From Bolinopsis microptera (Eukaryota > Ctenophora > Tentaculata > Lobata > Bolinopsidae), in NCBI RefSeq assembly GCF_026151205.1, contig NC_087075.1, positions 13,274,628 through 13,338,627 on the forward strand: a stretch of 64,000 nucleotides of DNA. The letters are read 5' to 3'. Under the pieces are notes generated by a model. It was given only the letters and a program-made list of their open reading frames with translations. It was not told where the DNA came from and searched no databases. The translations under genes were made by a program, and so were the position numbers. This document shows, piece by piece, positions 66 through 55,925 of the stretch (position 1 is its first letter; each line of letters opens with the position of its first letter).

Positions 66-2842
66 CAGTAGCATCATACTTCACAATAGAAATATTAAAA
101 TAACAAATAGTGTAAAATGTGCAGTAGCATCATACTTCACAATAGAAATATTAAAATAATAAATAGTGTAAAATGTGCAGTAGCATCCTACTTCACAATA
201 GAAATATTAAAATAATAAATAGTGTAAAATGTGCAGTAGCATCATACTTCACAATAGAAATATTAAAATAATAAATAGTGTAAAATGTGCAGTAGCATCA
301 TACTTCACAATAGAAATATTAAAATAATAAATAGTGTAAAATGTGCAGTAGCATCCTACTTCACAATAGAAATATTAAAATAACAAATAGTGTAAAATGT
401 GCAGTAGCATCCTACTTCACAATAGAAATATTAAAATAATAAATAGTGTAAAATGTGCAGTAGCATCATACTTCACAATAGAAATATTAAAATATTAAAT
501 AGTGTAAAATGTGCAGTAGCATCCTACTTCACAATAGAAATATTAAAATAATAAATAGTGTAAAATGTGCAGTAGCATCATACTTCACAATAGAAATATT
601 AAAATAATAAATAGTGTAAAATGTGCAGTAGCATCATACTTCACAATAGAAATATTAAAATAATAAATAGTGTAAAATGTGCAGTAGCATCATACTTCAC
701 AATAGAAATATTGAAATAATAAATAGTGTAAAATGTGCAGTAGCATCATACTTCACAATAGAAATATTAAAATAATAAATAGTGTAAAATGTGCAGTGGC
801 ATCATACTCAACAATAGAAATATTAAAATAATAAATAGTGTAAAATGTGCAGTAGCATCCTACTTCACAATAGAAATATTAAAATAATAAATAGTGTAAA
901 ATGTGCAGTAGCATCCTACTTCACAATAGAAATATTGAAATAATAAATAGTGTAAAATGTGCAGTAGCATCCTACTTCACAATAGAAATATTAAAATAAC
1001 AAATAGTGTAAAATGTGCAGTAGCATCATACTCAACAATAGAAATATTAAAATAATAAATAGTGTAAAATGTGCAGTAGCATCCTACTTCACAATAGAAA
1101 TATTAAAATATTAAATAGTGTAAAATGTGCAGTAGCATCCTACTCAACAATAGAAATATTAAAATATTAAATAGTGTAAAATGTGCAGTAGCATCCTACT
1201 TCACAATAGAAATATTAAAATAATAAATAGTGTAAAATGTGCAGTAGCATCCTACTCAACAATAGAAATATTAAAATAATAAATAGTGTAAAATGTGCAG
1301 TAGCATCCTACTTCACAATAGAAATATTAAAATAATAAATAGTGTAAAATGTGCAGTAGCATCCTACTCAACAATAGAAATATTAAAATAATAAATAGTG
1401 TAAAATGTGCAGTAGCATCCTACTCAACAATAGAAATATTAAAATAATAAATAGTGTAAAATGTGCAGTAGCATCATACTTCACAATAGAAATATTAAAA
1501 TAATAAATAGTGTAAAATGTGCAGTAGCATCCTACTCAACAATAGAAATATTAAAATATTAAATAGTGTAAAATGTGCAGTAGCATCCTACTTCACAATA
1601 GAAATATTAAAATAATAAATAGTGTAAAATGTGCAGTAGCATCATACTTCACAATAGAAATATTAAAATAATAAATAGTGTAAAATGTGCAGTAGCATCC
1701 TACTCAACAATAGAAATATTAAAATATTAAATAGTGTAAAATGTGTAGTAGCATCATACTTCACAATAGAAATATTAAAATAATAAATAGTGTAAAATGT
1801 GCAGTAGCATCATACTTCACAATAGAAATATTAAAATAATAAATATTGTAAAATGTGCAGTAGCATCCTACTCAACAATAGAAATATTAAAATAATAAAT
1901 AGTGTAAAATGTGCAGTAGCATTCTACTTCACAATAGAAATATTAAAATAATAAATAGTGTAAAATGTGCAGTAGCATCATACTTCACAATAGAAATATT
2001 AAAATAATAAATATTGTAAAATGTGCAGTAGCATCATACTTCACAATAGAAATATTAAAATATTAAATATTGTAAAATGTGCAGTAGCATCATACTTCAC
2101 AATAGAAATATTAAAATAATAAATAGTGTAAAATGTGCAGTAGCATCCTACTCAACAATAGAAATATTAAAATAATAAATAGTGTAAAATGTGCAGTAGC
2201 ATCCTACTTCACAATAGAAATATTAAAATAATAAATAGTGTAAAATGTGCAGTAGCATCCTACTCAACAATAGAAATATTAAAATAATAAATAGTGTAAA
2301 ATGTGCAGTAGCATCCTACTCAACAATAGAAATATTAAGATAATAAATAGTGTAAAATGTGCAGTAGCATCCTACTCAACAATAGAAATATTAAAATAAT
2401 AAATAGTGTAAAATGTGCAGTAGCATCCTACTCAACAATAGAAATATTAAAATAATAAATAGTGTAAAATGTGCAGTAGCATCATACTTCACAATAGAAA
2501 TATTAAAATAATAAATAGTGTAAAATGTGCAGTAGCATCATACTCAACAATAGAAATATTAAAATAATAAATAGTGTAAAATGTGCAGTAGCATCATACT
2601 CAACAATAGAAATATTAAAATAATAAATAGTGTAAAATGTGCAGTAGCATCATACTTCACAATAGAAATATTAAAATAATAAATAGTGTAAAATGTGCAG
2701 TAGCATCATACTTCACAATAGAAATATTAAAATAATAAATAGTGTAAAATGTGCAGTAGCATCATACTTCACAATAGAAATATTAAAATAATAAATAGTG
2801 TAAAATGTGCAGTAGCATCATACTTCACAATAGAAATATTAA
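66..2842. repeat. 56-bp satellite, first block
   Basis: About 49 head-to-tail copies of a 56-bp AT-rich unit whose core reads GCAGTAGCATCATACTTCAC followed by AATAGAAATATTAAAATAAT and AAATAGTGTAAAATGT. Monomers vary at a few fixed sites: CATC[A/C]TAC, TTCAC versus TCAAC, and ATAATAA, ATAACAA or ATTAAAT. Copies are otherwise nearly identical, so the array is homogenised and recent. No gene is visible in it. The first 65 bases of the window are non-repetitive and hold nothing recognisable. Confidence 0.97.
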
Positions 2843-20610: not shown

Positions 20611-23226
20611 GGAGGAGGAGGAGGCGGAGTTTAGTCTGTTGAGAGTGCTGGTGGTCGTGGTGCAGGATATGGGACGTTGTCGCTTCCTTCCTACCTCTCT
20701 GAAGAAATAAATAAAGTCACATTTTATATAGCAGTTTATCGAATAATACTTGTGTCAGCTATATAAGTAGCAAATCAGAACATGATATTGTTAGCAGTAC
20801 AGGGAAATTCAGATATATAAATTATAAAGAGGTTAAGTTCCAGGTGTTGGGTTTTTTTGCGACCTTCTGCAGTACACAAGAAAATGCTGGTGGTAATTTT
20901 AGATTTGGAAAATGGGATTTTAAACTTACTGGGCAATGAGGTAAAACTTTCTTTCGGGCTTCATTTTTTCATTCTGTAGGTGAACCTGAAACGTTTATCA
21001 TTAATGTGCACTTAATCTAAATCTTCACCAATATTTTGCAAAATAAAGTTACAAATTATTGATAGGTTGTACCCATATCCAAAAACCCGCATTCTCGCAT
21101 TCTAAGAATGTAGGAAATTTTTAAAAGTAGGAAATTTTTAACAAAAAGTAGGAAATTCGAGAGCCAACTCTGAGAATTTTCGATAATATTTCAGTAGGAA
21201 TTTAAGTGAAAGAGCAGACTAAAAGTTGCTGGACCGTTATTTAAATGTCCTCAGTCAGGGATCCACTGATCCAGTCTATCAAATTTCGTTTCACAGACCA
21301 AAGTTTGTTGCTATTAGCTATAAAATCTGTAGCTTGAAAGCAGAAAGTGATGGTAGTAGATGAGAAAACATTTTTGCCAAAATTATAAACTCTTGATACT
21401 TCATGCTGTCTCCTATTTCGTGCTTTAGTTAAGTCAAGTGTTTAGGGATTCTAGAATCCAGACTAATTATCCCAATAAAAATTGAAATCAGAAAATAGTA
21501 TGCTAAAATCGTTCTCCATTGTCAGATTCGTTCCAGGAGGCCAAATCTAGTTTAAATTTCCAAAATTTTCGGAGATTACTTTTGCCCCCAAAAGTAATCT
21601 AGGATTATCTATTAAAAAGCATTCCGGGCCCTAAAAACGTAAAATTGAGAATCTGGAATCCGCCATGAAAAATCTTTGAACCGCCGAATACAAAGACTTT
21701 TTATGCGAGCGAAGCGAGCGGGCCACAGAAAACGAAAAAATTGAGAATGTAGGAAATTAAAAAATTTTTGGATATGGGAGGTTGTAAATCTATCAAATAA
21801 CATAATTTCAACATAATTTACTCTTACCATATATAGTTTGTCTCTAAGTTTTCTGCACATGAGATCTGATTTGGACTTCGGGGTTTCAGCTGGCTGCTTC
21901 CTTGTCGGCGAACCTGCTGTGAGGAGTAGCTTTATTTTAAGTTTATTTTAGAGCAAAATGAGAACAACCAAGTTCTTTTTACTCAAATTCTGCTATGTCA
22001 ATGTGCACAGGTCTTAAGTCTTTGTATAAGTAATTACTAAAAAACTCCCAGTGATAGGGAAAAATTTCGTACACCGATTAATATAAATAGTCCCAAGTTG
22101 GCCCCGTAAACTGTAACGATAGATGATTACCTTTACTTTTTAAGTTGCAGCCATTTTTAAATTGGTCGATTATCAAGTTGACTTGAACTTCTCGGTGGTT
22201 CTGGCCGTCTATGCTCAGTTGTCTGAAAAAAGTAGTTGTTATTAAACTATCTATAAAAAGTTTATTGGAAAATCTTGTCAAAAACGTTTATAAAATTCGA
22301 TCAGTTCACGCAGCTATCTACATCGTATTATGGTACAATCAGTACTGATCTCATACTAGCCTACTTCCACTATATTATCCCAATCACTTTGATTCTGACG
22401 TTGACTCTGTCGAGACAATGTAATTAATCGAAAAGAGAAACTTCGTCGAGAAATCTTACGTCATCGGAAGAATATTTTGAAGGTAGCCTCAAATCTGCAG
22501 AAACAATGGTCAAGACTAGTTTTCAACGCGAAAAAATTCGAGGAAGGGATAGATTGATCTTCCGACCGACTAGCTATTTAAATGCACTTAGTTGATTTAA
22601 AAACTTTGAATTGATTACATCAGAACCGGATATCAATAAACTGAATGTCATCATCAACATGCTGTCGCCGACTGTTCAAAGTCGCTATTAGATATTTAGA
22701 ATCACAAATGCCACATGATTTTCTGAGTCATTCACACTGCAGAACAAAATGATTCAAAAACCGCGAAATTTAATTAACTTTTCTCAGTATTGTCTGCCAT
22801 GACAGGCGAGCCCCGGCGGAGCCTCCGGAATTTTTGATAAAATCGAAGCATTTTGCCACATTATCCGGCATCCTGATCACAGGAATAGTCTCAAGAGATA
22901 TGTGTTAGCTATATGGGATATATTGTCAGGGAGGTTTCGCCTGCCCTGCCTCATTGCTGGCTAGGTGACGGATTTCAATATCGACAATCTGTTGATGATA
23001 TCTCAGAAGATACAAGCAATAACGGCAATACTTCAACTACAGACACATTGAGCAGCACTAACTTAGTCACTGAGGTGCAAATTATAGGATAATCGTATCA
23101 CATGCACATTCAAATGACAAATTACATATTCAAATTACATATTCAAATTACATATTCAAATTACCTCCAGAGTGGGTTTGTCTGCGGTCGGAGCCTTGAA
23201 GTTTTCACGCATTCTTCTGCTACCAT
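20575..23226 (-). CDS. Five-exon gene of unknown family (left copy, 140 aa)
   Basis: Minus-strand exons: 23226-23165, 22222-22131, 21916-21828, 20985-20930, 20698-20575. All introns are GT..AG and the phases (2,1,0,2) close to one 140-residue frame. Segments in order: MVAEECVKTSRLRPQTNPLW; REVQVNLIIDQFKNGCNLK; a basic middle GSPTRKQPAETPKSKSD; MCRKLRDKLYMVHLQNEKMK; PERKFYFIAQEVGRKRQR; then a Ser/Thr-rich tail ending QRHYPSNG. The KRQR-type basic run could be a nuclear signal (inference). No family recognised. The coding case rests on the right-arm copy differing by a 9-nt indel in exon 3 and a 6-nt indel in exon 5, both in frame, plus a synonymous change in exon 1. A hAT-like MITE lies in intron 3. 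A CACGTG pair sits about 130 bp upstream of the ATG. An upstream non-coding exon is possible. Confidence 0.65.
21072..21778. mobile_element. hAT-like MITE in intron 3 (left arm only)
   Basis: A 707-bp insertion with perfect 14-bp terminal inverted repeats CCCATATCCAAAAA and a perfect 8-bp target duplication AGGTTGTA (21064-21071, 21779-21786). The right arm has the uninterrupted site at 54502-54509. The 8-bp duplication suggests the hAT superfamily, although the ends do not start with the usual CAG. The interior has imperfect inverted segments (AAGTAGGAAATTTTTAA motifs near 21110-21160, GTAGGAAATT near the other end) and no transposase frame. Confidence 0.85.
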
Positions 23227-23354
23227 TTCTTGTGAACTAAGATGCTAAAACACTTTGAGTATATCAGAAAATGGTGAATAGAATTATCTTCAATTGATCG
23301 CCAGTAGGAAAACGTAAACATCAATATCATGAATTTTAGAATGTGAGTCATCAT

Positions 23355-23387
23355 CACGTGATCACACCCGGAGGGTGTGGTCACGTG
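23355..23387. promoter_or_regulatory. CACGTG pair upstream of five-exon gene (left)
   Basis: CACGTG at 23355 and 23382 inside TCACGTGATCAC palindromes, about 130-160 bp upstream of the proposed ATG at 23226. The right arm has three such sites in 26-bp tandem repeats. Conservation of the block next to the gene suggests promoter elements for bHLH-zip factors; this is inferred. Confidence 0.45.
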
Positions 23388-23399
23388 ATCACGCCCCAG

Positions 23400-26120
23400 A
23401 GTGTGGTCGCAGCTTGTCGAAAACGTTTGATCGAATGCAAATTACGACGAAGTCTATCGCCTGTAGTAACAACTACAGTCTACCTTGAAAACTATTCTTA
23501 ACAACTTTACCCAGTAACGGCTCAACACAAGAAAACGACTTGTTATAAAATTGAAATCGCAATCTGAATTGGTTTAAGACCTCCATAATTATCCCCAATC
23601 CATTTTACAAGTTTTGACTAATCAATAACTTTCGACCATTCTTTTTCTATTAATGGGCACACAGTCTTTCAACTGTTTAAACTGTTACTACCCACGCAAT
23701 ACGAAGGAAAATTCACAAACAAAAAGTTTGTAAAGCTTATAACTACTGAATGCTTGTGTCTTTCTAAAAACTAAACAATTCTGTAAAGTCTACATAAGGA
23801 ATAAACAAATAGCGGCTGTCACCAAGCTTCAAGGTCAACAAACAAGTTCATTAATTTAAAACAAAAAAGTTCATTTTCTCATTAATTTAAAACTTGAGGA
23901 TTAAAAGAAGAGTGATATTTAACGGTGAATAACCAATCAGCTTTTTTAGGATAAAGTACGACTGTCAGTGTCACTGTGCATTGGCCACTTCAAATGTGCT
24001 TACTATAATGCAACAATACAGTCAAATTATCTTGCCGTGTCGAGGAACGAACAAATTAACGGAACAGATTTAAACAAAAAAGGCCGAGTGTAGATTGTGA
24101 AGTGAACACCGCACGTGCGCGCGGCGTAAGGAGGCTACTAACGCGTGAGCAGAGAATCGAGCGAGTAGCAGCCCTCAGGGGTCAATATTATAGCTATCGT
24201 AAAATTGGTACGTCCGAAAAAAGTCTTTGTTCAATCATGGCAATTTCTTTCTTACTTTTAATATTGTAAGTACTCAACCGCGGTTCCAATATCACTGGAT
24301 GTGTTCGCTTGCTCACATCACATATACATAGATACAATCAAAAGAACATTCACATCGTTATTAATGGACTAAATATCAAATTTGCGATAGAAAAGATAAG
24401 CAACAAGAAGCTCCCTCGTACTATCTGAGAAAGTGCCATGAATTTCATCAGCACAGTGTGTGATAATATGAGACATGACGTAACTGAGCGATCTAGTCGT
24501 AAGCAGTAATTGATCAAATGTATGGATATCAGTCCCTGAAAACACAAGTGAACTTCAGAGTGAAGCGGTTTATTTCAAAGTGAAGCGTCTCTTAGCTGCT
24601 ATAAACTTATAAACCTGCCGACAACTTCACTGATCAAACATTATAACACTGCTATTAAGTATTAACATTTGTTTGCTTCATTAATAAATCACCGACCCTG
24701 AAACCACAAAAGATTCATTCAAACAGACTCAAACCTGACACGATGTTTAGAAAACCACACCGACAGCAGTTTTAAAAGAAGATTTGTAATTCAAATGAGA
24801 CCACTGCAGATGACAAGTGGTTTGCATTCAAAACAATTGGAAGTACTTTAAAAACAACTGCTGGAGCTGGACAATAGTTGATTTAGAGAAAATGTCTCTT
24901 TGCTTGTTTACAATTCTTAAAGTACACAATGGCGCTGAGCTTGACTAATCAGAGCACGTAGTTGACCTGTTCGACCAACCAGTTCCCGAGTACGATAAGA
25001 TATCGTTTCATCAACCACATACTCTTTTTGTGGACAATACTTTTTAACAGTAGCTGATTCACTGTGACAATGTTTAGAGATAAAGTTCACATTACAAAAT
25101 CGTGGAGACTCGAAACAAATCTATCGGTTGAGAGAGATTACAAGAATAACAATGATCAGCTGTTTATAGTGCTAGTTGGACAGAATCAGCATTCAGTTAT
25201 CTGCGGGGACCTCAGGCTTTTTCTGCTTATAAACATTGAAGCTGCGGCGGAGTGACAGGCTGAGCAGTGAGCTGTCCAGTAAGCATTTAGTTTATAGTTC
25301 TAGTATAATTTATAGTTTGTTCAATTTCAGAAGAAATTAATAGAAATCTGTTGCAGTTGCACAGGGTACTGCACTGATAAGAATTTAGAATAAGCTATTT
25401 AAGGTATCGTCCACAGTTGATAGAGTGGTTGAGGTTTTAAAAGCTCTTTAATTTAAACACGAGAGCTATGTTTGAATTGGGGGAAGGGGTCTATAAACAA
25501 TAAAAGTGAGTGACGAAAATTTGGCTGTCGTAATGACATAATATGAATAATGTTTTAATAATATGAGGACGAACACTTATTATAGCCTTGATAGTCTCGG
25601 CCACAACAAGCAAACATTCTTGGAGCCCTCCCAGTCCTATTTTATAGTACTGCTGATAATGAGATATAGATTATTGGGGACGAAATAAGAGTCTCCATGA
25701 CTCACTGTAAAACAAAATACACCATGTATTGTCGACGTTTTGGCAACATGCCTTTGCTGTACACGAAACGTTGAGATTATACTCTTTACCATTGATGAAA
25801 CACACAATTGATAAAACTAATCTGTTCAAATAAAATATAACTAGCAATAACATGAAGTGCCTTTAAATCTATTTATAGATTGTGTCCAATTAAAATATAG
25901 CAAGCAAGCAACAACGTGCTGATGTTTCCACTTTCCATCCATTTGTCACATTGGTCACTTTTGATCAAAGTATGGATGGAGCTAACGTCAATGAAACCAC
26001 CGTCAATGAAACCAACAACATCAGCTGTTTTTAGTTTTAAATTGAAAATTCGACAGTTCTTATGTCTACTTTTGAATGTAAGATGAATAATTGATTATTG
26101 ATGACATTTTAACGTGTAAT
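23400..26120. other. Intergenic in left arm
   Basis: No exon could be supported. The right-arm equivalent (46395-49260) is alignable but increasingly different. Short open frames here are not kept in the right arm. Confidence 0.5.
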
Positions 26121-34590: not shown

Positions 34591-36755
34591 TTAACAGTTG
34601 GTGTGAACGAAGTCCCCGTTTGCTAGAATCTTGATGTTGGCGTGTTGATCAGCTGTGAAGGCTTGGTCTGGAAAAAATTAAGTTATTACTTTGAATAAAG
34701 AAGTTACTTTGTTGAGGTCATTACTAGACTTTAAATAAAGATTAATTCTGAATTCGATGCAGTTTCACGGCGGGATTTGGTCAAGTAAAACTGTTGCATA
34801 TTTGCAATAATTTACAAAAATTGAACATTTTTCTATACCAATTTGTTGACATTTAACAACTTGCTACATGAATACGCCTTATACTAACTAACTATGCTAA
34901 CTAACTACACTAGTTAGTAATAACTAACTAACAATTCAAATTAAAAACTTACTGCACTTAGTGCATCTCTTGCAGCCGTAATGGTAAGTGTTAGCAAGGT
35001 AGATGAGTCGTTGTCCACTGATAGTCCCGTTGCAGATACCGCAAGTGTGTACCTGAGGGGCTCCCTTGCAGTTGAAACACTCGGGCTTGCCTGGCAGAAA
35101 GTAAACAGTAATATGTTAAGTAGAAAAAGGATTTTAGTATAATTACTATAATTGTAGAGTATAATAATTATAAAGTATCGTACAGGGACAAAAGGATTTT
35201 AGTATAATTGTAGAGTATAATTATAAAGTATCGTACAGTGCCACGGCTAAGACTTGCAAAGCTTATGTTAGCGATTGGGATCAGTAAAAATGGTATATTG
35301 GTCCCCCAAAGGTTGGAGCTACATATTTATATAAATTTAAAGTAGAGGCGGGTACAATAATGTAAATTATAATAATTAGTACAAATCCGTATTAGTCGCT
35401 AACTGTAGTTACACTTGCAAGGCTTTCATTTTACGAGGAGTTGCATGGGCGTGTTGAAAGGTAAAACTCTATCTCTAACACAAAAAATAATTCAAAAGTT
35501 AAAGTATATTCTGCATAAGTTAGATCGGTCTCTGGTGAGGCTGTCTTCTTGGAGGAAAGAAAGTTTTTTTAAACACGTGTTGATAAAGTGTTGTTTACAA
35601 ATTCGTAATTTATAACACCATCTGTGAATGGATTCGTAACAAGGGTTTCTCTTCAGAAATGTGCTGTAATCCGAGGAACTAACAGAAAAGGTTGTCAGAC
35701 TATTATAAATATTAACTCCTAGAATGGTTTCTGGGAGTTGGGACTATATGGACAACACATTACTGAAGAGAAGCCTTTGTTACGAATTTATTCACAGCTT
35801 ATCTTATTCCCTCCCTAACTAGTTAACTAGTAACTACATGTGATAAGGAGTGTGACTCACCTCCGTTATCGTAGAAACTCTCAGTTGGTGCTACGACCCT
35901 GTTACAAGAGGTGCAACGGAAACAATCGTGATGCCAAAACTTGTTTAACCCGGTTACCCATCGGCTTGGAATGTTCTGGTTACATCCTCCGCAAATCCTG
36001 GGGAAGTTCATATGAAAAATGAGATAGTGGTGTTGATTATATTAATTAGAGAATTATAATCAAAGAATTAGAGGTCGGAAAGTGCAATGATTGTGTCAGA
36101 TCATAAAAGATAAATCAATAAATCAAACGGTCAGTGACTCTCACTGAGAGTCACTCCGTTTGATTTATTCATTTATTTTTTATTTATTGAGAGGACCGTC
36201 AGACATATGATTGAACTTGAAAAGATAAATCAATAAATCAAACGGTCAGTGACTCTCACTGAGAGTCACTCCGTTTGATTTATTCATTTATTTTTTATTT
36301 ATTGAGAGGACCGTCAGACATATAATTGAACTTGAAAAGATAAATCAATAAATCAAACGGTCAGTGACTCTCACTGAGAGTCACTCCGTTTGATTTATTG
36401 ATTTATTTTTTATTTATTGAGAGTCTCTCAGTCTTAAGATCACCCAGTTAATTTAAAGATTTACAAACAAATCGTGTTTTCACTCCCAAAAATATAGGAT
36501 AAAATTGTAAAAACTCCTTATCTCTCGGTCTAGGTTCATCAGTCTTTTCCTCTCTGCATATTATGCCATATTAATATGGCGATTTCTGGTTCTATATAAT
36601 ATGGCGATCACGGTAAAAAGTTCTGATTGAAACCTCTTTAGGTTGAGCTTCTAATATTAGCTGGGGGAAGTTATTTTTTATTAATTAATTAGTGTAAAAC
36701 GAGAATTTCACATTAAGTTGACATTAAATGTTACTTACTTTGGTCCGTCAGACAT
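34591..36755 (-). CDS. Small double LIM-domain protein, 122 aa
   Basis: Minus-strand exons 36755-36739 (MSDGPK), 35997-35861, 35090-34953, 34667-34591. All GT..AG, and phases close to exactly 122 codons. LIM1 (residues ~8-60): CGGC, WHHDC, CTSC and CFNC give the C-x2-C / H-x2-C / C-x2-C / C-x2-C zinc pattern. LIM2 (~67-122): CGIC, HYGC, CTKC, ending HTNC, so the last pair is His/Cys and the protein stops at its final ligand. It resembles LIM-only/cysteine-rich adaptor proteins, which bind other proteins or actin-associated partners rather than DNA. An AATAAA overlaps the stop region. An equal alternative first exon lies at 37154-37138. The palindrome's inner edge falls in intron 3. Confidence 0.85.
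35622..35821. mobile_element. MITE related to the 49.4-kb TIR element
   Basis: ~200 bp in LIM intron 2. Right end CCCTAACTA, then inward CTGTGAATAAATTCGTAACA and AATGTGTTGTCCATA, all matching the terminal inverted repeat of the element at 49421-53009. The left half is the inverted counterpart (CTGTGAATGGATTCGTAACA) but lacks the outermost bases. So a short non-autonomous relative, with one end eroded. Confidence 0.75.
36109..36453. repeat. 115-bp tandem repeat with hairpin, three copies
   Basis: Units start at 36109, 36224 and 36339; a fourth, dispersed copy is at 36770. Each holds a near-perfect ~66-bp palindrome: GATAAATCAATAAATCAAAC before a centre AGTGACTCTCACTGAGAGTC and the mirrored CCGTTTGATTTATT after it. 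Each unit also ends with GACCGTCAGACATAT, a truncated piece of the LIM start exon. Confidence 0.9.
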
Positions 36756-46394: not shown

Positions 46395-49300
46395 CTTTTT
46401 AGCTAAACAACGGGTTCATATCCATCGGAATATTCATCATGATGGAAATATAACTACTTTTGCATATGAACATTACCATAATTATAAGTGCATGAGTTAA
46501 ATTACCATGTTGCTTGATAGGGGGAGAATTTATTAATGTTATAAAAAGATTTTAAATTGCGTTGTTATAGCGCCGGAATTCATTGCTATCGATAGGAATA
46601 TTAACCTAACAAAAATTACCATACCACGTTAAATGACGTCAATTATCAATTAGTCATCTTACATTCAAAAGTAGACATAAGATCTGTCGAATTTTCAATT
46701 TAAAACTAAAAAATAGATGTTGTGTTGGTTTCATTGACGGTGGTATTGGTTTCATTGACGTTAGCTCATCCATTACTTTGTTCAAAAGTGACCATGTGAC
46801 AAAATGGAGGAATGTGGAAACATCAGAACGTTGTTGCTTGCCTTGCTATTATTTTAAAATTGGACACAATCTATAATAGATTTAAAGGCAATTTCCATGT
46901 ATTAGCTTGTTATATTTTATTTGAAAGATTAGTTTTATCAATTGTGGTTTCTATCAAATGGTAAAGAGAACATTCTCAACTTTCGTGTACAGCAAAGTAT
47001 GTTGCCAAATACGTCGAAAATACATGGAGTATGTGTTTTCAGTGAGTCATGGTGGACTCTTATTTCGTACCCTATTAATATATCTCATTATCAGCTGTAC
47101 TATAAAATAGGAATTGGAGGGCTCCAAGAATGTATGCTTGGTGTGGGACTATAAGGCTATATTAAGTGTTCCGTTCTCATTATTTATTAAAACATCTTAT
47201 TATTATGTCATTTCGACAGCCAAATTTTCTGTCAACAATTTCATAGACCCCTTCACCCAATTTTCAAACATAGCTCTAAAACATTAAATTCATATCAGTG
47301 TAGCACCTGTGCACTGCAACAGATTTTAATTTCCTTTCGAAATTGAAAACAAACTTTTAAATTTTAATAGAACTATAAACATTGCTTACTGGACAGCTCA
47401 CTGAATTCAGCCTGTCTTTCAGCCGCAGCTTCATTGTTTTTAAGCAGAAAAAGCCTGAGGTCCCCGCAGATAACTGAATGCTGATTCTGTCAACTACAAC
47501 TACATCTATAAAAAGCTGTTCAATGTTTTCTTGTAATCTCTCTCAAACGAGATTTGTTTCGAGGTATACAACGATTTACGTAAATGTGCAACTTTTTCTA
47601 TAAACATTGTCACAGTGAATCAGCTATGTTAAATGTTGTCCACAAAAAAGAGTATTGTGGTTGATGAAAACGATATCTCATCGTACTACGGAATATGGTT
47701 GTCGAGCAGGTCAACTAAGTGCTCTGTTTAGTCAAGCTCAGCGCCATTGTGTACTTTAAGAATGTAAACAGCAAAGAGACTATTTTCTCTAAATCAACTA
47801 TTGTCCAGCTCCAGCAGTTGTTTTTTACATAGTACTTCCTATTGTTTTGAATGCAAACACTTGTTCATCTGCAGTGGTCTCATTTGAACTACAAATCTTC
47901 TTTTAAACTGTTGTCGGTGTGGTTTTCTAAAACATCGTGTCAGGTTTTGAGGTCTGTTGAAGAATCTTTTGTGGTTTCAGGGTCGGTGATTTATTATGTA
48001 GCTAACAAATGTTAATACTTAATAGCAGTTGCTTTAAGTTTGATACCAGCTGAGTTGTCGGCAGGTTTATAGCAGCTAGTGTCCGCTACCACTTTGAATA
48101 AATCGCTTCACTCTGAAGTTCACTTGTGTTATACAGGGACTGATATCCTTACATTGATCATTTACTGCTTACGACTAGATCGCAAAGTTACGTCAAGTTC
48201 ATATTATCTCCACTGTGCTATGAAATTCATAGACACTTTCTAAGATAGTACGAGGGAGCTTCTATTGTTTATCTTTTCTATCGCAATTTGATATTTAGTC
48301 TATTAATAAGATGTGATTAGTCATTTTTGATTGTTTACGATGTTTATGTGATTAGGCAAAGCTAACAATCCAGTGATATTGGAACCGCGGTTGCGTACTT
48401 ACATTATTAAAGGTAAGAAAGAAATTGCCATGATTGAACCAAAAGAATTTTTTCGGACGTACAATTTTAGATAGCTATAAATATGCCCCTGAGGGCCTGC
48501 TTCGCTCTTTTCTCTGCTCACGCGTTAGTACTTTTAGTAGCCATCTTACGCCGCGCGCACGTGCGGTGTTCATTCACAAATATTACACTCGGCTTTTTTG
48601 TTGTAACTCTGTTCCGTTAATTTGTTTCGTTCCTCGACAAGGCAAGATAATTGACTAGTATTGTTGGCATTATAGTAAGCACATTTGAAGTGGCCAATGC
48701 TCAGTGACCTGACAGTCGTCCTAAAAAACTGATTAAGGGGGGGGGGGGTTTATTCAACGTTTAATATCACTCTTCTATTAATCCTCAAGTTTTAAATTAA
48801 TGTGAAAATGTACTTTTTTGTTTTAAATTAATGAACTTGTTTGTCGACCTTTTGAAGCTTGGTGACAGCGCTTTTGGTTTATTCCTTATGTAGACTTTAC
48901 AGAATTGTTTAGTTTTTAGAAAGACACATAGCATTCAGTAATTTTAAGCTTTACAAGCTTTTTGTTTGTGAATTTTCCTTCGTATTCGTGGGTAGTAAAC
49001 AGTTTTTTTAAAACCGTTGAAAGACCTGCGTGCCCATTAATAGAAAAAGAATGGTCGAAAGTTATTGATTAGTCAAAACTTGTAAAATGGATTGGGGATA
49101 ATTATGGAGGTCTTAAACCAATTCAGATTGCGATTTTAATTTTATAACAAGTAGTAAAGTAGTTTTCTTGTGTTGAGCCGTTACTGGGTAAAGTTGTTAA
49201 GAATAGTTTTCCAGGTAGACTGTAGTTGTTACTACAGGCGATAGACTTCGTCGCAATTTGCATTCGATCGAACGTTTTCGACAAGCTGCGACCACACTCT
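46395..49300. other. Right-arm intergenic, diverged copy
   Basis: Counterpart of 23420-26125 and 28341-28560, including the empty site of the left-arm LINE near 46600-46620. A run of 10 G at about 48738 is absent on the left. No exon supported. Confidence 0.5.
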
Positions 49301-49310
49301 GGGGCGTGAT

Positions 49311-49368
49311 CACGTGACCACACTCTGGGGCGTGATCACGTGACCACACTCTGGGGCGTGATCACGTG
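49311..49368. promoter_or_regulatory. Three CACGTG boxes in 26-bp repeats (right)
   Basis: CACGTG at 49311, 49337 and 49363, each in GGGGCGTGATCACGTGACCA. This is the counterpart of the two-box block upstream of the left gene copy. Here a 3.6-kb transposon separates it from exon 1 at 53089. Confidence 0.45.
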
Positions 49369-49904
49369 ATGATGACTCACATTCTAAAATTCATGATATT
49401 GATGTTTACGTTTTCCTACTTAGTTAGGGCAAGAATTGCTGTTTATGGGTCAATCTGTGAACAAATTCGTAACAAAGGTTTGTCTACAGGAATGTGTTGT
49501 CCATAGTCCCAGGAACCACCAAAAAAAACCGTCCAGCTGAAACTTTTGGGCAAAAATTTTTATAGTCATTTTTCTCCAGGAACCCATACGCCCCACCCCT
49601 AATATTGGTTATTCGGCTCCCGAAGGTCTTGAGATCTCCATAGGGGGTGCAAAATGACCGCAATGGCCACATTATGGCAGGCGAATGATAGTTTCAGAAC
49701 GATTGGAGCTTTATTTTTCGAAATAAATGGAATTTTTCGAATTTTTTCTCAATTTTATTGAAATTTCGAAAAAAAAAAACACCAAATTATTTTTAACGCT
49801 TATTTCAAATCTATTTAAAAACTTATCTACAAATAACAAATACGGTTAATCTAAAATGTGTATTCTCAGTAAGTACCATGACAATTATTAATACACAGTT
49901 AATA

Positions 49905-50078
49905 TTAATCAAAATTCGCTTGTTCTTCAGGTTCATCATGTCTAATGTTTGTGCAGTTCATACCATGGCATCGTCCACAAGCTGGCAAACAATTGAAGCC
50001 ATATTTCCTACATGAACATCTGAAAGTCAAACAGGCCTGTTCCACATCGACAGAACAGTTACAACATATAAGGTTCAT
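49905..50078 (-). pseudogene. Cys-rich C-terminal piece of transposon protein
   Basis: Minus-strand frame to a stop at 49905 with LICCNCSVDVEQACLTFRCS followed by CRKYGFNCLPACGRCHGMNC. The spacing of Cys resembles a single CXC (tesmin-like) zinc-binding motif, which I recall as the tail of a repetitive uncharacterised protein family in marine invertebrates; not verified. It lies 3' of the other piece in the same orientation, as expected for one gene. Confidence 0.65.
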
Positions 50079-50094
50079 ATGAGGAGGATAACTG

Positions 50095-51955
50095 AGGAGG
50101 AGGAGAAGGACTGAGGAGGAGAAGAGGGATCCAGGAGGAGAACCCAGGAGGAGGAGGAGGACTGAGGAGGAGGACTAAGGAGAAGGAAGACTGATGAGGA
50201 GGATGAGGAAGAGGGTGACTGGGAGAAGGACTGAGAAGGACTGAGGAGGAGAATGCGGACTGAGGAGGAGGAACCAGGAAAAGGAGGAGGAGGAGGACTA
50301 AAGAGGAGGACTGAGAAGGCGAAGGAGGACTGATGAGGAGGATGAGAATGAGGAGGAGGGTGACTGGGGGAGGACTGAGGAGGAGGGTGACTGGGGGAGG
50401 ACTGAGGAATATGAGGAAGACTGAGGAGGAGGAGGAAGAGGAGAAGGACTGAGGAGGAGAAGGACTGAGGAGGAGAAGGACTGAGGAGGAGAAGCAGGAG
50501 GAGGAGGACCCAGGAGGATGAGGACCCAGGAGGAGGACCCAGGAAAAGGCCCCAGGAGGAGAAGGAGGAGGACTGGGGAGAAGGAGGACTGTTGAGGACG
50601 AGGAGGAGTGAAAGAAGGACTGAGGAGGGGAGGAGAAGGAGGAATGAGGAGGATCAGGAAGACCCAGGAGGAGGAGGACCCAGGAGGAGGACCCAGGAGG
50701 AGGAGGAGGAGGACTGAGGAGGATGACTGAGGAGGAGGAGGACTGAGGAGGAGGAGGAGGACTGAGAAGGAGGAGGACTGAGGAGGAGGAGGACTGAGGA
50801 GGAGGAGGAGGAGGAGTGAATAGGAGGAGGAGGGGGACTGGGCAGGACTGAGGAGGAGGAGGACTGAGGAAAAGGATGAGGAGGAGGACTGAGAAGGAGG
50901 ACTGAGCTGAGGAGGAGGAATGAGGACTGAGGAGGAAGAGGAGGAGGATGAAGAGGAGGTGGACCTAAGAGGAGGAGGTCCCAGGAGGAGGACCCAGGAG
51001 GAGGACTCAGGAGGAGGAGGAGGATGACTGAGGAGGAGGACTGAGGAGTACTGAGGAGGATCGCTGAGGAGGATGGCTGAGGAGGATGGCTGAGGAGGAT
51101 GGCTGAGGAGGATGACTGAGGAGGATGACTGAGAGGGAGGAGGAGGAGGACTGAGGAGGAGGAGGAGAAAGAGGACCCAGGAGGAGGACTCAGGAGAAAA
51201 AGGAGGAGGAGGACTCAGAAGGAGGAATGAGGAGGACTCAGAAGGAGGAATGAGAAGGAGGAGAACTGTTAACGGGTGATACTCGTAAAATATCTGTCCA
51301 ACTCGGCGCGCGTCCTGGTAGGTTGTAAACCTACAAGAGAACTGAGGAGGAGGAGGAGGAGGACTGAATAGGAGGAGGAGGGGGACTGGGGGAGGACTGA
51401 GGAGGAGGAGGACTGACGAGAAGGATGAGGAGGAGGACTGAGGACTGAGGAGGAAGAGGAGGAGGATGAAGAGGAGGAGGAGGACCCAGGAGGGGGAGGA
51501 CTGAGGAGGATGATGAGGACTGCAGAGGAGGAGGACTGAGGAGGATGGCTGAGGAGGATGACTGAGAGGGAGGGGGAGGAGGAGGAGGAGGACTCAGGAG
51601 GAGGACTCAGGAGGACTGAGAAGGAGGAGGACTGAGGAGAACTGAGGAGGATGAGGAGGAGGACTGAATAGAAGGAGGAGGAGGGGGACTGGGGGGAGGA
51701 CTGAGGAGGAGGACTGAAGAGGACTGAGGAGAAGGATGAGGAGGAGGACTGAGGAGAAGGACTGAGGACTGAGGAGGAAGAGGAGGAGGATGAAGAGGAG
51801 GAGGATGAAGAGGAGGAGGATGAAGAGGAGGAGGAGGAGGACTCAGGAGGAGGACCCAGGAGGAGGACTCAGGAGGAGGATGACTGAGGAGGTGGAAGAG
51901 GAGGAGGAGGAGGAGGAGGAGGAGGAGGAGGAGGAGGAGGAAGAGGAGGAAGCAT
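50095..51955. repeat. ~1.9-kb GGA-rich simple-sequence tract
   Basis: Imperfect GGAGGA/CTGAGGAGGAGGAC microsatellite, almost pure purine on the plus strand. It is broken once, at about 51265-51340, by ~75 bp of mixed sequence with the palindrome TAGGTTGTAAACCTA. Long open frames over it are low-complexity artefacts. Confidence 0.95.
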
Positions 51956-52100
51956 CTAAATGTTATTTCAATTTTTGTTATTTTTTGTCCGTTTTTGTCC
52001 GTTTTTGTCCGCTTTATTTTTTGTCCGTTTTGAAAATATGGCTGCCAAACAGACAAAAACGGACAAAAAACATGATCCCCCCCCCCCCCTTTAGAAGCAG

Positions 52101-52590
52101 AGTTATTTTCTCTGATAGATCCTGAATAGATTTAGTCTTAAAGTTAACACCTATATTTTCGTTCACACATTTGTTGATGTAACCTTCCAAGTCTACTAGT
52201 TCCTCGTCGTAAACTTCTTCCTCTATAATGAAACAACAAAGAGCGGCGTCGATCAGAAAGTGGGCTCTCAACGCTTTATAGTAAGATCCTCCATCCGATA
52301 TATGCGTGACGTCTCCAGGATACACGAGTTTGATGAGCTCCTCTAAACCAGAGTCTGCCATTATATAGCCTATGCAGCCAAGAAAACTCGTGAGAGTGTG
52401 GAAGCCCCCAACCCTGATCACAATAGGCATCCCAGTTTCCAGTACTATTCGGGTGGCCTTAATCCACAATGGCAAATCGAATGTGATTATCATCGGCTCA
52501 CTGTAGGATAACTTAAGACATTCAACCAGAGTAGCATGTACCGTCGAATAGCTGTCTGGGGGTTGGTCAATAATCTGTTGTTTGTTAGTT
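52101..52590 (-). pseudogene. N-terminal piece of transposon protein
   Basis: About 160 residues in one minus-strand frame from just inside the right TIR. Blocks: QQIIDQPPDSYSTVHATLVE, MIITFDLPLWIKATRIVLE, RVGGFHTLTSFLGCIGYIMA, SGLEELIKLVYPGDVTHISD, YKALRAHFLIDAALCC. I recognise the TFD.PLW/K, RLGGFH and GxIGxIMAxSGL pattern from an uncharacterised repetitive protein family; from memory, unverified. The frame ends in a G run and spacer repeats (TTTTTGTCCG) before the GGA tract, so the middle of the protein is missing. Whether it is a transposase or cargo cannot be told. Confidence 0.65.
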
Positions 52591-53088
52591 AACCTTGATA
52601 TTTGTTAATTGAAGTTATTTCCCGAGTAAGATTTGAAATAAGCGTTAAAAATAATTTGGTGTATTTTTTTCGAAATTTTAATAAAATTGAGAAAAATTTC
52701 GAAAAATTCCATTTATTTCGAAAAAATAAAGCCCCAATCGTTCTGAAACTATCATTCGCCTGCCATAATGTGGCCATTGCGGTCATTTTGCACCCCCTAT
52801 GGAGATCTCAAGACCTTCGGGAGCCGAATAACCAATATTAGGGGTGGGGCGTATGGGTTCCTGGAGAAAAATGACTATAAAAATTTTTGCCCAAAAGTTT
52901 CAGCTGGACGGTTTTTTTTGGTGGTTCCTGGGACTATGGACAACACATTCCAGTAGACAAACCTTTGTTACGAATTTGTTCACAGAAAAATCAACTCTTG
53001 CCCTAACTAACTGGCGATCAATTGAAGATAATTCTATTCATCATTTTCTGATGTACTCAAAGTGTTTTAGCATCTTAGTTCACAAGAA

Positions 53089-55925
53089 ATGGTAGCAGAA
53101 GAATGCGTGAAAACTTCAAGGCTCCGCCCGCAGACAAACCCACTCTGGAGGTAATTTGAATATGTAATTTGAATATGTAATTTGTCATTTGAATGTGCAT
53201 GTGATACGATTATCCTATAATTTGCACCTCAGTGACTAAGTTAGTGCTGCTCAATGTGTCATGTAGTTGAAGTATTGCCGTTATTGCTTGTATCTTCTGA
53301 GATATCATGAACAGATTGTCGATATTGAAATCAGTCACCTAGCCAGCAATGAGGCAGGGCAGGCGAAACCTCCCGATTGCCTGCCCTGACAATATTTCCT
53401 ATAAAGCTTACACATGTCTCTGAGATTATTCCTGTGATCAGGATGCCGGATAATGTGGCAAAATGCTTCGATTTTCTCAAAAATTCCGGAGGCTCCGCCG
53501 GGGCTCGCCTGTCATGGCAGACAATACTGAGAAAAGTTAATTAAATTTCGCGGTTTATGAATCATTGTTCTGCAGTGTGGATGACTCAGAAAATCATGTG
53601 GCATTTGTGATTCTAAATATCTAATAGCGACTTTGAACAGTCGGCGACAGCATGTTGATGATGACATTCAGTTTATTGATATCCGGTTCTGATGTAATCA
53701 ATTCAAAGTTTTTAAATTAACTAAATGCATTTAAATAGTTTAGTCGGTCGGATCAATAAATCCCTTCCTTGAATTTTTTCGCGTTGAAAACTAGTCTTGA
53801 CCATTGTTTCTGCGGATTTGAGGCTACCTTCAAAATATTCTCCCGATGACGTAAGATTTCTCGACGAAGTTTCTCTTTTCGATTAATTACATTGTCTCGA
53901 CAGAGTTAACGTCAGAATCAAAGTGATCGGGGTAATATATTGGAAGTAGGCTAGTATGAGATCAGAACTGATTGTACCATAATACGACGTAGATTGCTGC
54001 GTGAACTGATCGAATTTTATAAACGTTTTTGGTAAGATTTTCCAATAAACGTTTTATTGTTAGTTTAATAACTACTACTTTTTTCAGACAACTGAGCATA
54101 GACGGCCAGAACAACCGAGAAGTTCAAGTCAACTTGATAATCGACCAATTTAAAAATGGCTGCAACTTGAAAAGTAAAGGTAATCATCTATCTTTACAGG
54201 GCCAATTTGGGATTATTAATCGGTGTACGAAATTTTTCCCTATCACTGGGAGTTTTTTAGTAATTACTTATACAAAGACTTAAGACCTGTGCACATTGAC
54301 ATAGCAGAATTTGAGTAAAAAAAACTTGGTTGTTCTCATTTTGCTCTAAAATAAACTTAAAATAAAGCTACTCCTCACAGCAGGTTCGCCGACAAGGAAA
54401 CAGCCAGCTGAAACCAAATCAGATCTCATGTGCAGAAAACTTAGAGACAAACTATATATGGTAAGAGTAAATTATGTTGAAATTATGTTATTTGATAGAT
54501 TTACAACCTATCAATAATTTGTAATTTTATTTTGCAAAATATTGGTGAAGATTTAGATTAAGTGCACATTAATGATTAACGTTTCAGGTTCACCTACAGA
54601 ATGAAAAAATGAAGCCCGAAAGAAAGTTTTACTTCATTGCCCAGTAAGTTTAAAATCCCATTTTCCAAATCTAAAATTACGGCCAGTTGGTAGATCACCG
54701 ACTGGCTATAAGCCGGCTACTAACCGGCTATAAGCCGGCTTATAGCCGGCTACAATTTTTATAGCCGGCTATAAGCCGGCTTATAGCCGGTTAGTAGCCG
54801 CTTACATTTGTTGTTGAGCGACGGCTATTAGCCGGTTATAAGCCTGCTATTAGCCGTTTTGGTATTAAAAGTGGTTATAAGCCGGCTATAAGCCGGTTAT
54901 AAGATATTAACTCAACTACATCGTACTGAACGATAGTCAGGAGCCGGCTATAAGAAATTCAGTGAAAACGGCTATTAGCCGGTTATAAGCCGGTTATTAG
55001 CCGTTTAGGTATCGAAAGTGGTTATAAGCCGGCTATAAGCCGGCTATAAGCCGGTTATAAGATATTAACTCAGTTCAGTACGATGAAGTTAAGTTAATAT
55101 CTTATAACCGGCTTATAGCCGGCTTATAACCACTTTCGATACCTAAACGGCTAATAGCCGGCTTATAACCGGCTAATAGCCGTTTTCGCTGAATTTCTTA
55201 TAGCCGGCTCCTGACTATCGTTCAGTACGATGAAGTTGAGTTAATATCTTATAACCGGCTTATAGCCGGCTTATAACCACTTTCGATACCTAAACGGCTA
55301 ATAGCCGGCTTATAACCGGCTAATAGCCGTTTTCACTGAATTTCTTATAGCCGATACCTAAACGGCTAATAGCCGGCTTATAACCGGCTAATAGCCGTCG
55401 CTCAACAACAAATGTAAGCGGCTACTAACCGGCTATAAGCCGGCTTATAGCCGGCTATAAAAATTGTAGCCGGCTATAAGCCGGTTTATAGCCAGCTTAT
55501 AACCGGCTTATAGCCGGTCGGTGATCTACCAATTTCCCAAAATTACCACCAGCATTTTCTTGTGTACTGCAGAAGGTCGCAAAAAAACCCAACACCTGGA
55601 ACTTAACCTCTTTATAATTTATATATCTGAATTCCCTGTACTGCTAACAATATCATGTTCTGATTTGCTACTTATATAATAGCTGACACAATTATTAATC
55701 GATAAACTGCTATATAAAATGTGACTTTATTTATTTCTTCAGAGAGGTAGGAAGGAAGCGACAACGATAAACTGCTATATAAAATGTGACTTTATTTATT
55801 TCTTCAGAGAGGTAGGAAGGAAGCGACAACGTCCCATATCCTGCACCACGACCACCAGCACTCTCAACAGACTAAACTCCTCCTCCTCCACCAGCAGTCA
55901 GCGACACTACCCTTCTAACGGTTAG
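53089..55925 (+). CDS. Five-exon gene of unknown family (right copy, 135 aa)
   Basis: Plus-strand exons 53089-53150, 54088-54179, 54381-54460, 54588-54643, 55808-55925; GT..AG throughout, phases 2,1,0,2, total 136 codons with stop. The protein equals the left copy except for lack of three residues in exon 3 (PKS), two fewer residues in the Ser run, and single replacements such as N for H in exon 2. Exon 5 is preceded by a 65-bp tandem duplication that doubles its acceptor; only the downstream acceptor keeps the full exon. Intron 4 carries a foldback element. The stop codon lies at the first bases of the compound minisatellite. The 3.6-kb TIR element sits 80 bp upstream of the ATG. Confidence 0.65.
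54681..55538. mobile_element. Foldback element of GCCGGCTATAAGCCGG repeats
   Basis: An 858-bp insertion in intron 4 of the right gene copy, bounded by the 8-bp duplication AAAATTAC (54673-54680, 55539-55546). The left arm has the uninterrupted site near 20891-20905. Ends share TTGGTAGATCACCGAC. The whole element is one near-perfect palindrome centred near 55085, itself built from short palindromes of GGCTATAAGCCGGCTTATAG type. The 8-bp duplication suggests hAT-type mobilisation. No coding capacity. Confidence 0.88.

Follow-up and report, generated by a model that had tools for sequence, protein, structure and literature searches.

A bounded element with an unoccupied counterpart

The window is a 64,000-nucleotide stretch of a Bolinopsis microptera contig (NC_087075.1), and the feature at 49421-53009 within it is, from the window sequence and its self-comparison, a real and precisely bounded insertion. 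Its left TIR (49421-49812, plus strand) starts TAGTTAGGGCAAGA and recurs in other genome copies, its right TIR (52629-53009, minus strand) terminates in ...TCTTGCCCTAACTA, and the two arms match each other at 94.7% over 393 columns; the TIRs are about 0.39 kb long and the termini are of the TAGTTAGGG type. A target-site duplication (TSD) of the letters ACT, scored as 3 bp, occupies 49418-49420 and 53010-53012, so that the flanks read ...TTTTCCTACT before the element and ACTGGCG... after it. The same target is unoccupied at 23303-23305 (minus strand, ...TTTTCCTACTGGCG...), where both flanks meet over one ACT. All that the sequence-only reading had claimed of the boundaries is thereby confirmed: the TIRs of ~0.4 kb with their TAGTTAGGG ends, the duplicated ACT and the exact match to an unoccupied site. 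Similarity around the empty site runs for ~2 kb on the left (87%) and ~1.5 kb on the right (94%), and because it extends on a kilobase scale to both sides, what lacks the element here is a paralogue within a larger inverted repeat (~21779-25248) and no allele.

The repeat itself is a long inverted duplication of several kb at 87-94%, in which 47421-49420 and 53010-54509 correspond to 25248-21779, one arm being occupied by the element and the other empty. Short direct and inverted repeats cluster beside the duplicated arm, at 54700-55530.

Between its TIRs the element holds two protein remnants, both on the minus strand. A 173-aa core at 52086-52604 is identified by genome matches and alignments as the remnant of a transposase core, with its second catalytic-type D (TFDLPLW), GGFH and GxIGxIMAxSGL, and a 57-aa tail at 49908-50078 is identified by genome matches as a CXC-domain remnant of the transposase C-terminus. 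The reference for both is L010, a locus on C7 where an uninterrupted 1,335-aa frame spans core and tail, the tail corresponding to residues ~1274-1330. In L010 numbering, the window copy consists of the equivalents of residues 400-598, with one stop, and 1274-1330. Of the catalytic residues it retains the second D, and with it the CXC tail; D305 (the first D), E709 and the nuclease region are missing, and no fragment spans a complete catalytic domain or a nuclease. The gene part for residues ~599-1273, which includes the third acidic residue and the nuclease region, is replaced by ~1.9 kb of GA-rich simple sequence at 50083-51959 (limits approximate, by eye).

Self-comparison also brings out a piece at 35620-35800 with 75-87% similarity to portions of the window TIR, which the sequence-only reading took for a mobile short derivative. 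One recognisable CCCTAACTA end lies just outside it; a second end and a duplication were looked for at this locus and none was seen, and for this reason we regard the piece as a degenerate relic only. At C7:12017160 there is a derivative of 200 bp in which both ends are present, flanked by duplicated ACA.

Copies, ends and target sites across the genome

We searched a 264.65-Mb assembly of 232 contigs for the 14-base TIR end TAGTTAGGGCAAGA, which occurs 138 times, 69 per strand, whereas its reversed-letter control does not occur at all. Pairing ends that face each other less than 12 kb apart, on the basis of 100 listed positions of the 138, gave at least 33 facing pairs; the elements they delimit range from 200 to 5,557 bp, with a median of 3,552 bp, and 34 ends among those listed remained unpaired. 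A first set for TSD scoring comprised 28 of the 33 facing pairs and the sibling locus L009, and 29 of 29 copies were duplicated, 28 of them by 3 bp, with 19 distinct 3-mers, and one by 4 bp. Left out of this count were the pairs at C5:9202612, C5:9351474 and C10:6679109 and the sibling loci L006, which reaches the contig end, and L004, where the arm alignment overran the ends. Further loci added two 3-bp duplications (L074, L076) and one of 4 bp (L075); L073 duplicates an already counted copy and was left out of the new tally, and L072, one terminus of which deviates from the exact motif, was unscored by the script and by eye fits TTA. The overall tally is 32 duplicated copies out of 32 scored, 30 by 3 bp and two by 4 bp; the genome search for the TIR proposed by the sequence-only reading returned both facing pairs and repeated short duplications.

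The protein remnants are similarly repetitive, with 138 genome match rows for the core and 130 for the tail at E up to 0.01, where one locus can yield several rows. Some stop-ridden, diverged core and tail matches on C5, C8, C10, C11, C12 and C13 recur at equal spacings and with identical scores, in pairs ~10.4-10.7 kb apart (for example C10:7563140-7674900, C12:1375751-1440440 and C13:15330521-15395210), and are apparently carried along within very large blocks, each ~65-110 kb or more, that were copied recently.

Ends of the same kind recur in relatives. L010, together with its flank L022, makes up an element of 7,694 bp that is bounded by TAGTTAGGG...CCCTAACTA and has a GTT duplication and arms of 370 bp at 98%. 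We had considered that long TIRs arise only in derivatives, and dropped this view because the L010 element itself has 370-bp arms. By eye, TAGTTAGGG ends with a 3-bp TSD are also present at L011 (ATA), L013 (TAG), L014 (CAA) and L020 (AGA), the last being a family H locus whose transposase region is ~21% identical to that of L010 and whose protein is split over two frames; L012 shows a single TAGTTAGGG-type end within the stretch examined. L016 has TAGTAAGGGG on one side, TAGGGGG on the other and a CAG duplication (by eye), and L018 has TACTCTAGTAGCAGGG ends with a GCA duplication; at L017 and L019 a duplication was looked for and none resolved. A Repbase rule for non-autonomous elements, as given in PMC4455052, places elements in the same superfamily when TSD lengths are equal and the first 11 bases differ by at most one mismatch. 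The window end TAGTTAGGGCA differs from the L010 right end TAGTTAGGGAA by one mismatch, both with 3-bp TSDs, so that by this rule the two belong together; the L010 left end TAGTTAGGGAC differs from TAGTTAGGGCA by two.

Several features were observed next to these elements. A tandem array of units like GTGCGTGATAAAGTCTGTTCATTTGCGTGATATTGTCCCT lies just upstream of the long frame in the family E element (L016, 5884-6481), and coding DNA that we take to be RNase-H-like lies just outside the L010 element (L010 ~1050-1500, minus strand). Beside a family F copy, L071 contains a 628-aa frame (minus strand), presumably reverse-transcriptase-like.

The encoded protein

Beyond L010, long frames are found in L016 (1,428 aa, GTG start), L017 (1,568 codons, stop to stop), L018 (1,559) and L019 (1,524, with the CXC end missing), which gives a range of 1,335-1,568 codons over several divergent families. 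Coding-like stretches upstream of the L010 frame suggest that it may have further exons. An alignment of five families, at 20-24% identity, contains 20 invariant columns, and among the residues conserved in 5/5 families are, in L010 numbering, D305 (within DN), D474 (within TFDLPLW), the histidine of GGFH, and D705 and E709 (both within DLSIEQ). At the level of motifs, D305, D474 and E709 are a candidate D-D-E triad accompanied by a GxxH motif, so that the conserved acidic triad the sequence-only reading had suggested looking for is present as three positions invariant in every family. These motifs would correspond to an RNase-H fold, and the same motif-level reading places a long insertion within the catalytic domain of the long-frame relatives. 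A profile of the D-D-E part gave no sensible match in the PDB, and the L010 and L016 proteins match no NCBIfam model and, apart from the CXC motif, no Pfam model. Relatives were also sought in viral contigs, where none was confirmed. The long-frame proteins are under purifying selection: L017 and L019 differ by dN 0.030 against dS 0.228 (dN/dS 0.13, family F), estimates that skip stop and gapped codons and for which L019 was ended at 1,490 aa, beyond which its frame departs.

Behind the D-D-E residues, at ~940-1200 in L010, follows a region in which the motifs VID, FDxY, EAD, DTD and GCD succeed one another. This order of acidic motifs is that of the XPG/FEN nucleases and matches the motifs of FEN1; the AcademX nuclease is XPG-like. 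Five aspartates (D7, D118, D140, D142 and D194) are invariant in 9/9 nuclease sequences, while the motif words themselves vary, with GAD for GCD in family F, DAD for DTD in L068, DAD for EAD in B and D, and, in the G types, FDxY with E instead of D. When a profile of seven nuclease sequences was compared with the PDB (E up to 10), all five matches were to exonuclease 1 (E 0.029-1.8); a profile of nine shorter sequences gave weaker E-values (best 0.67 against 0.029), with four of five matches to exonuclease 1 and one to a 5'-3' exonuclease family protein (E 0.67-0.99). Singly these matches are weak and non-significant, yet they are concordant. Pfam scans of the nine members returned eight scattered weak families below threshold, of which two, 5_3_exonuc_N and NYN_YacP (E ~0.09), agree with a nuclease; the remaining six, among them DUF1719 (E 0.0035, in a single member), disagree with it. 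From the motifs and this weak similarity, we infer a putative XPG/FEN-like nuclease fold.

The CXC-like tail claimed from the window sequence proved real. A C-terminal CXC motif is present in L010, L016, L017 and L018, and the Pfam TCR (CXC) model is matched by L016 at E = 3.1e-5; among the four long proteins or pieces scanned, L016 is the sole one above the cut-off for this model, and no Pfam model passes in the L010 protein. At the other end of the protein, CxxC...HxxC patterns occur close to the N-terminus in L016, L017 and L018, and the one match to this pattern in L010 is not N-terminal. A cysteine-rich N-terminal finger (Cys8) is a feature of Academ and AcademX. In the open-access literature searched, no Academ protein was described as having a CXC tail, and among the titles and abstracts listed nothing was relevant to CXC tails in transposases. 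Among the genome matches, 19 inverted pairs of CXC tails, 1.3-4.7 kb apart with C-termini outward, could be picked out by eye (for example C6:3258584(-)/3260860(+), C8:1881928(-)/1884483(+) and C7:17145846(-)/17148306(+)), as though derivatives that are palindromic, with a C-terminal end on each side, had multiplied. Such an end is seen in L011, with 616-bp arms at 99% and 23 tail codons on each side.

The protein pieces might instead be host DNA captured by a transposon that a known transposase (hAT, CMC or Harbinger) moves. Taken alone, the window copy would suit this explanation, since it has two fragments and a long simple-sequence stretch only, and a second protein in the sibling loci is formally possible, the Pfam scans covering other loci. 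Pieces of the same protein, however, are present in 9/9 sibling loci, seven of which have both exact ends; a relative with a complete-looking frame carries these ends too; the long-frame versions form several divergent families; and an extra 1.9-kb stretch in the sibling locus L001 has neither a long ORF nor a match among the other loci examined. The sequence-only reading had named pieces confined to this copy, with full-length relatives encoding a known transposase, as the mark of captured cargo; this is not borne out, and at least nine sibling loci carry the pieces. Because the protein recurs between the same ends, we reject capture, which has next to no probability, and regard the protein as the element's own enzyme; the tie between an orphan protein and a DNA transposon that the sequence-only reading proposed stands, the frame of L010 lying complete-looking within TAGTTAGGG ends. 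The extra stretch of L001 (4535-6473) has a CPGxAETxxH-type motif, which we take to be as in non-LTR retrotransposons.

A defective family and its probable relation to Academ

The siblings of the window copy share their defects. Residue 400 or 441 is the starting point in all nine (L001-L009), eight of which have a break at 1085/1087; the first piece of L003 likewise ends at 1085. A search with the N-terminal 458 residues of L010 gave at least 17 matches, of which the full-length one is L010 itself, the others running from query residue 346 onward or being small early pieces. On account of these shared start and break points and the scarcity of N-terminal matches, the family of the window copy probably goes back to an ancestor that was already defective, and was probably mobilised in trans. 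GA tracts are found in four other copies (L072, L073, L074 and L075), of which L072 matches the window copy at 99.4% across 3,597 columns; the longest tracts, by the script's measure, are 260-390 bp in these four and 340 bp in the window copy. Since GA-tract copies sit at four other sites, they indicate that the GA-filled derivative itself moved, probably in trans.

Another way to view the truncated protein, from the second D to the CXC, is as a working factor under selection, for instance a repressor or helper nuclease. Long open frames of up to 650 aa have been kept, and what spread was the truncated form. The pooled pN/pS, however, is near neutral at 0.73 (45 pairs, ten A copies, stop and gapped codons again skipped), against a dN/dS of 0.13 for family F, the identical frame break in the nuclease part is common to 8/9 siblings, and the GA-tract copies moved without most of the protein. 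A working role is thus very improbable, with near-neutral pN/pS disfavouring a helper in particular.

We propose that the cysteine-rich ends of the protein would recognise the ~0.4-kb TIRs, and that the D-D-E domain would cut at TAGTTAGGG and join the ends to the target with a stagger of 3 bp, or rarely 4 bp, while the nuclease may trim or resolve intermediates. The window family would have arisen from a copy without the N-terminus and first D, and would owe its spread to an intact enzyme, supplied by another source, that acted on its ends.

The AcademX lineage and the Academ superfamily reportedly go back to Kapitonov & Jurka 2010 and Kojima 2020. In the name of the family Academ-1_NV, _NV refers to Nematostella vectensis. 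According to PMC10045372, AcademX elements have 3- or 4-bp duplications and AcademH elements 9- or 10-bp ones, a difference related to an encoded nuclease versus a helicase; two other papers give the Academ superfamily a DDD/E transposase (PMC9587614) and Academ elements in bivalves a mean length of 5,565 bp (PMC10294476). We consider it very likely that the window copy belongs, as a non-autonomous and internally degraded element, to an AcademX-type cut-and-paste DNA transposon family; it fits Academ as defined by published description.

The sequence-only reading had proposed an undescribed superfamily. Such a D-D-E group would share its nuclease domain and 3/4-bp duplications with Academ by chance. 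The absence of model matches for L010 and L016 other than CXC speaks for it, as does the searched open-access literature, where the titles and abstracts listed describe no CXC tail for Academ and none of the papers listed mentions XPG. Against it, the domain set, putative nuclease included, and the duplication length coincide with those of AcademX (PMC10045372), and Academ-1_NV, a Repbase family of Academ that bears the _NV suffix, has already been published (PMC9004415). Because the element fits the AcademX lineage, we regard an undescribed superfamily as unlikely. A superfamily of its own, distinct from Academ and defined by TAGTTAGGG-type ends and a D-D-E, flap nuclease and CXC enzyme whose nuclease would take part in the cutting and set the 3/4-bp stagger, we hold to be just as unlikely.

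With assignment to AcademX, a repetitive 'uncharacterised' protein family gains a function, that of the transposase of Academ-type elements, and annotators can cease counting such proteins as host genes. The several selected long-frame proteins with clear ends and duplications are, moreover, material on which to test the role of a flap nuclease in a D-D-E transposase.

Known systems differ from this element to varying degrees. The hAT, P, MuDR, Kolobok and Dada elements form a C/DxxH group, whereas the motif here is GxxH; their duplications are of 8-9 bp or TTAA, and we know of no flap-nuclease domain in them. Rad2/XPG nucleases (exonuclease 1, FEN1) share the order of acidic motifs, and the PDB matches are to exonuclease 1, although similarity is weak and the nuclease-like region is here fused behind a transposase domain. 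AcademH belongs to the same superfamily; its 9- or 10-bp duplications and helicase (PMC10045372) contrast with 3/4 bp and a nuclease-like region here, and it is ruled out by duplication length and because Pfam scans of the L010 and L016 proteins showed no helicase. From AcademX, compared by description only, the element differs in its CXC tail and TAGTTAGGG-type ends, found in no AcademX description in the texts consulted; it resembles AcademX in its 3/4-bp duplications and, as Academ elements do, has a DDD/E transposase (here a candidate triad) and long elements, and its putative nuclease would correspond to the one encoded by AcademX.
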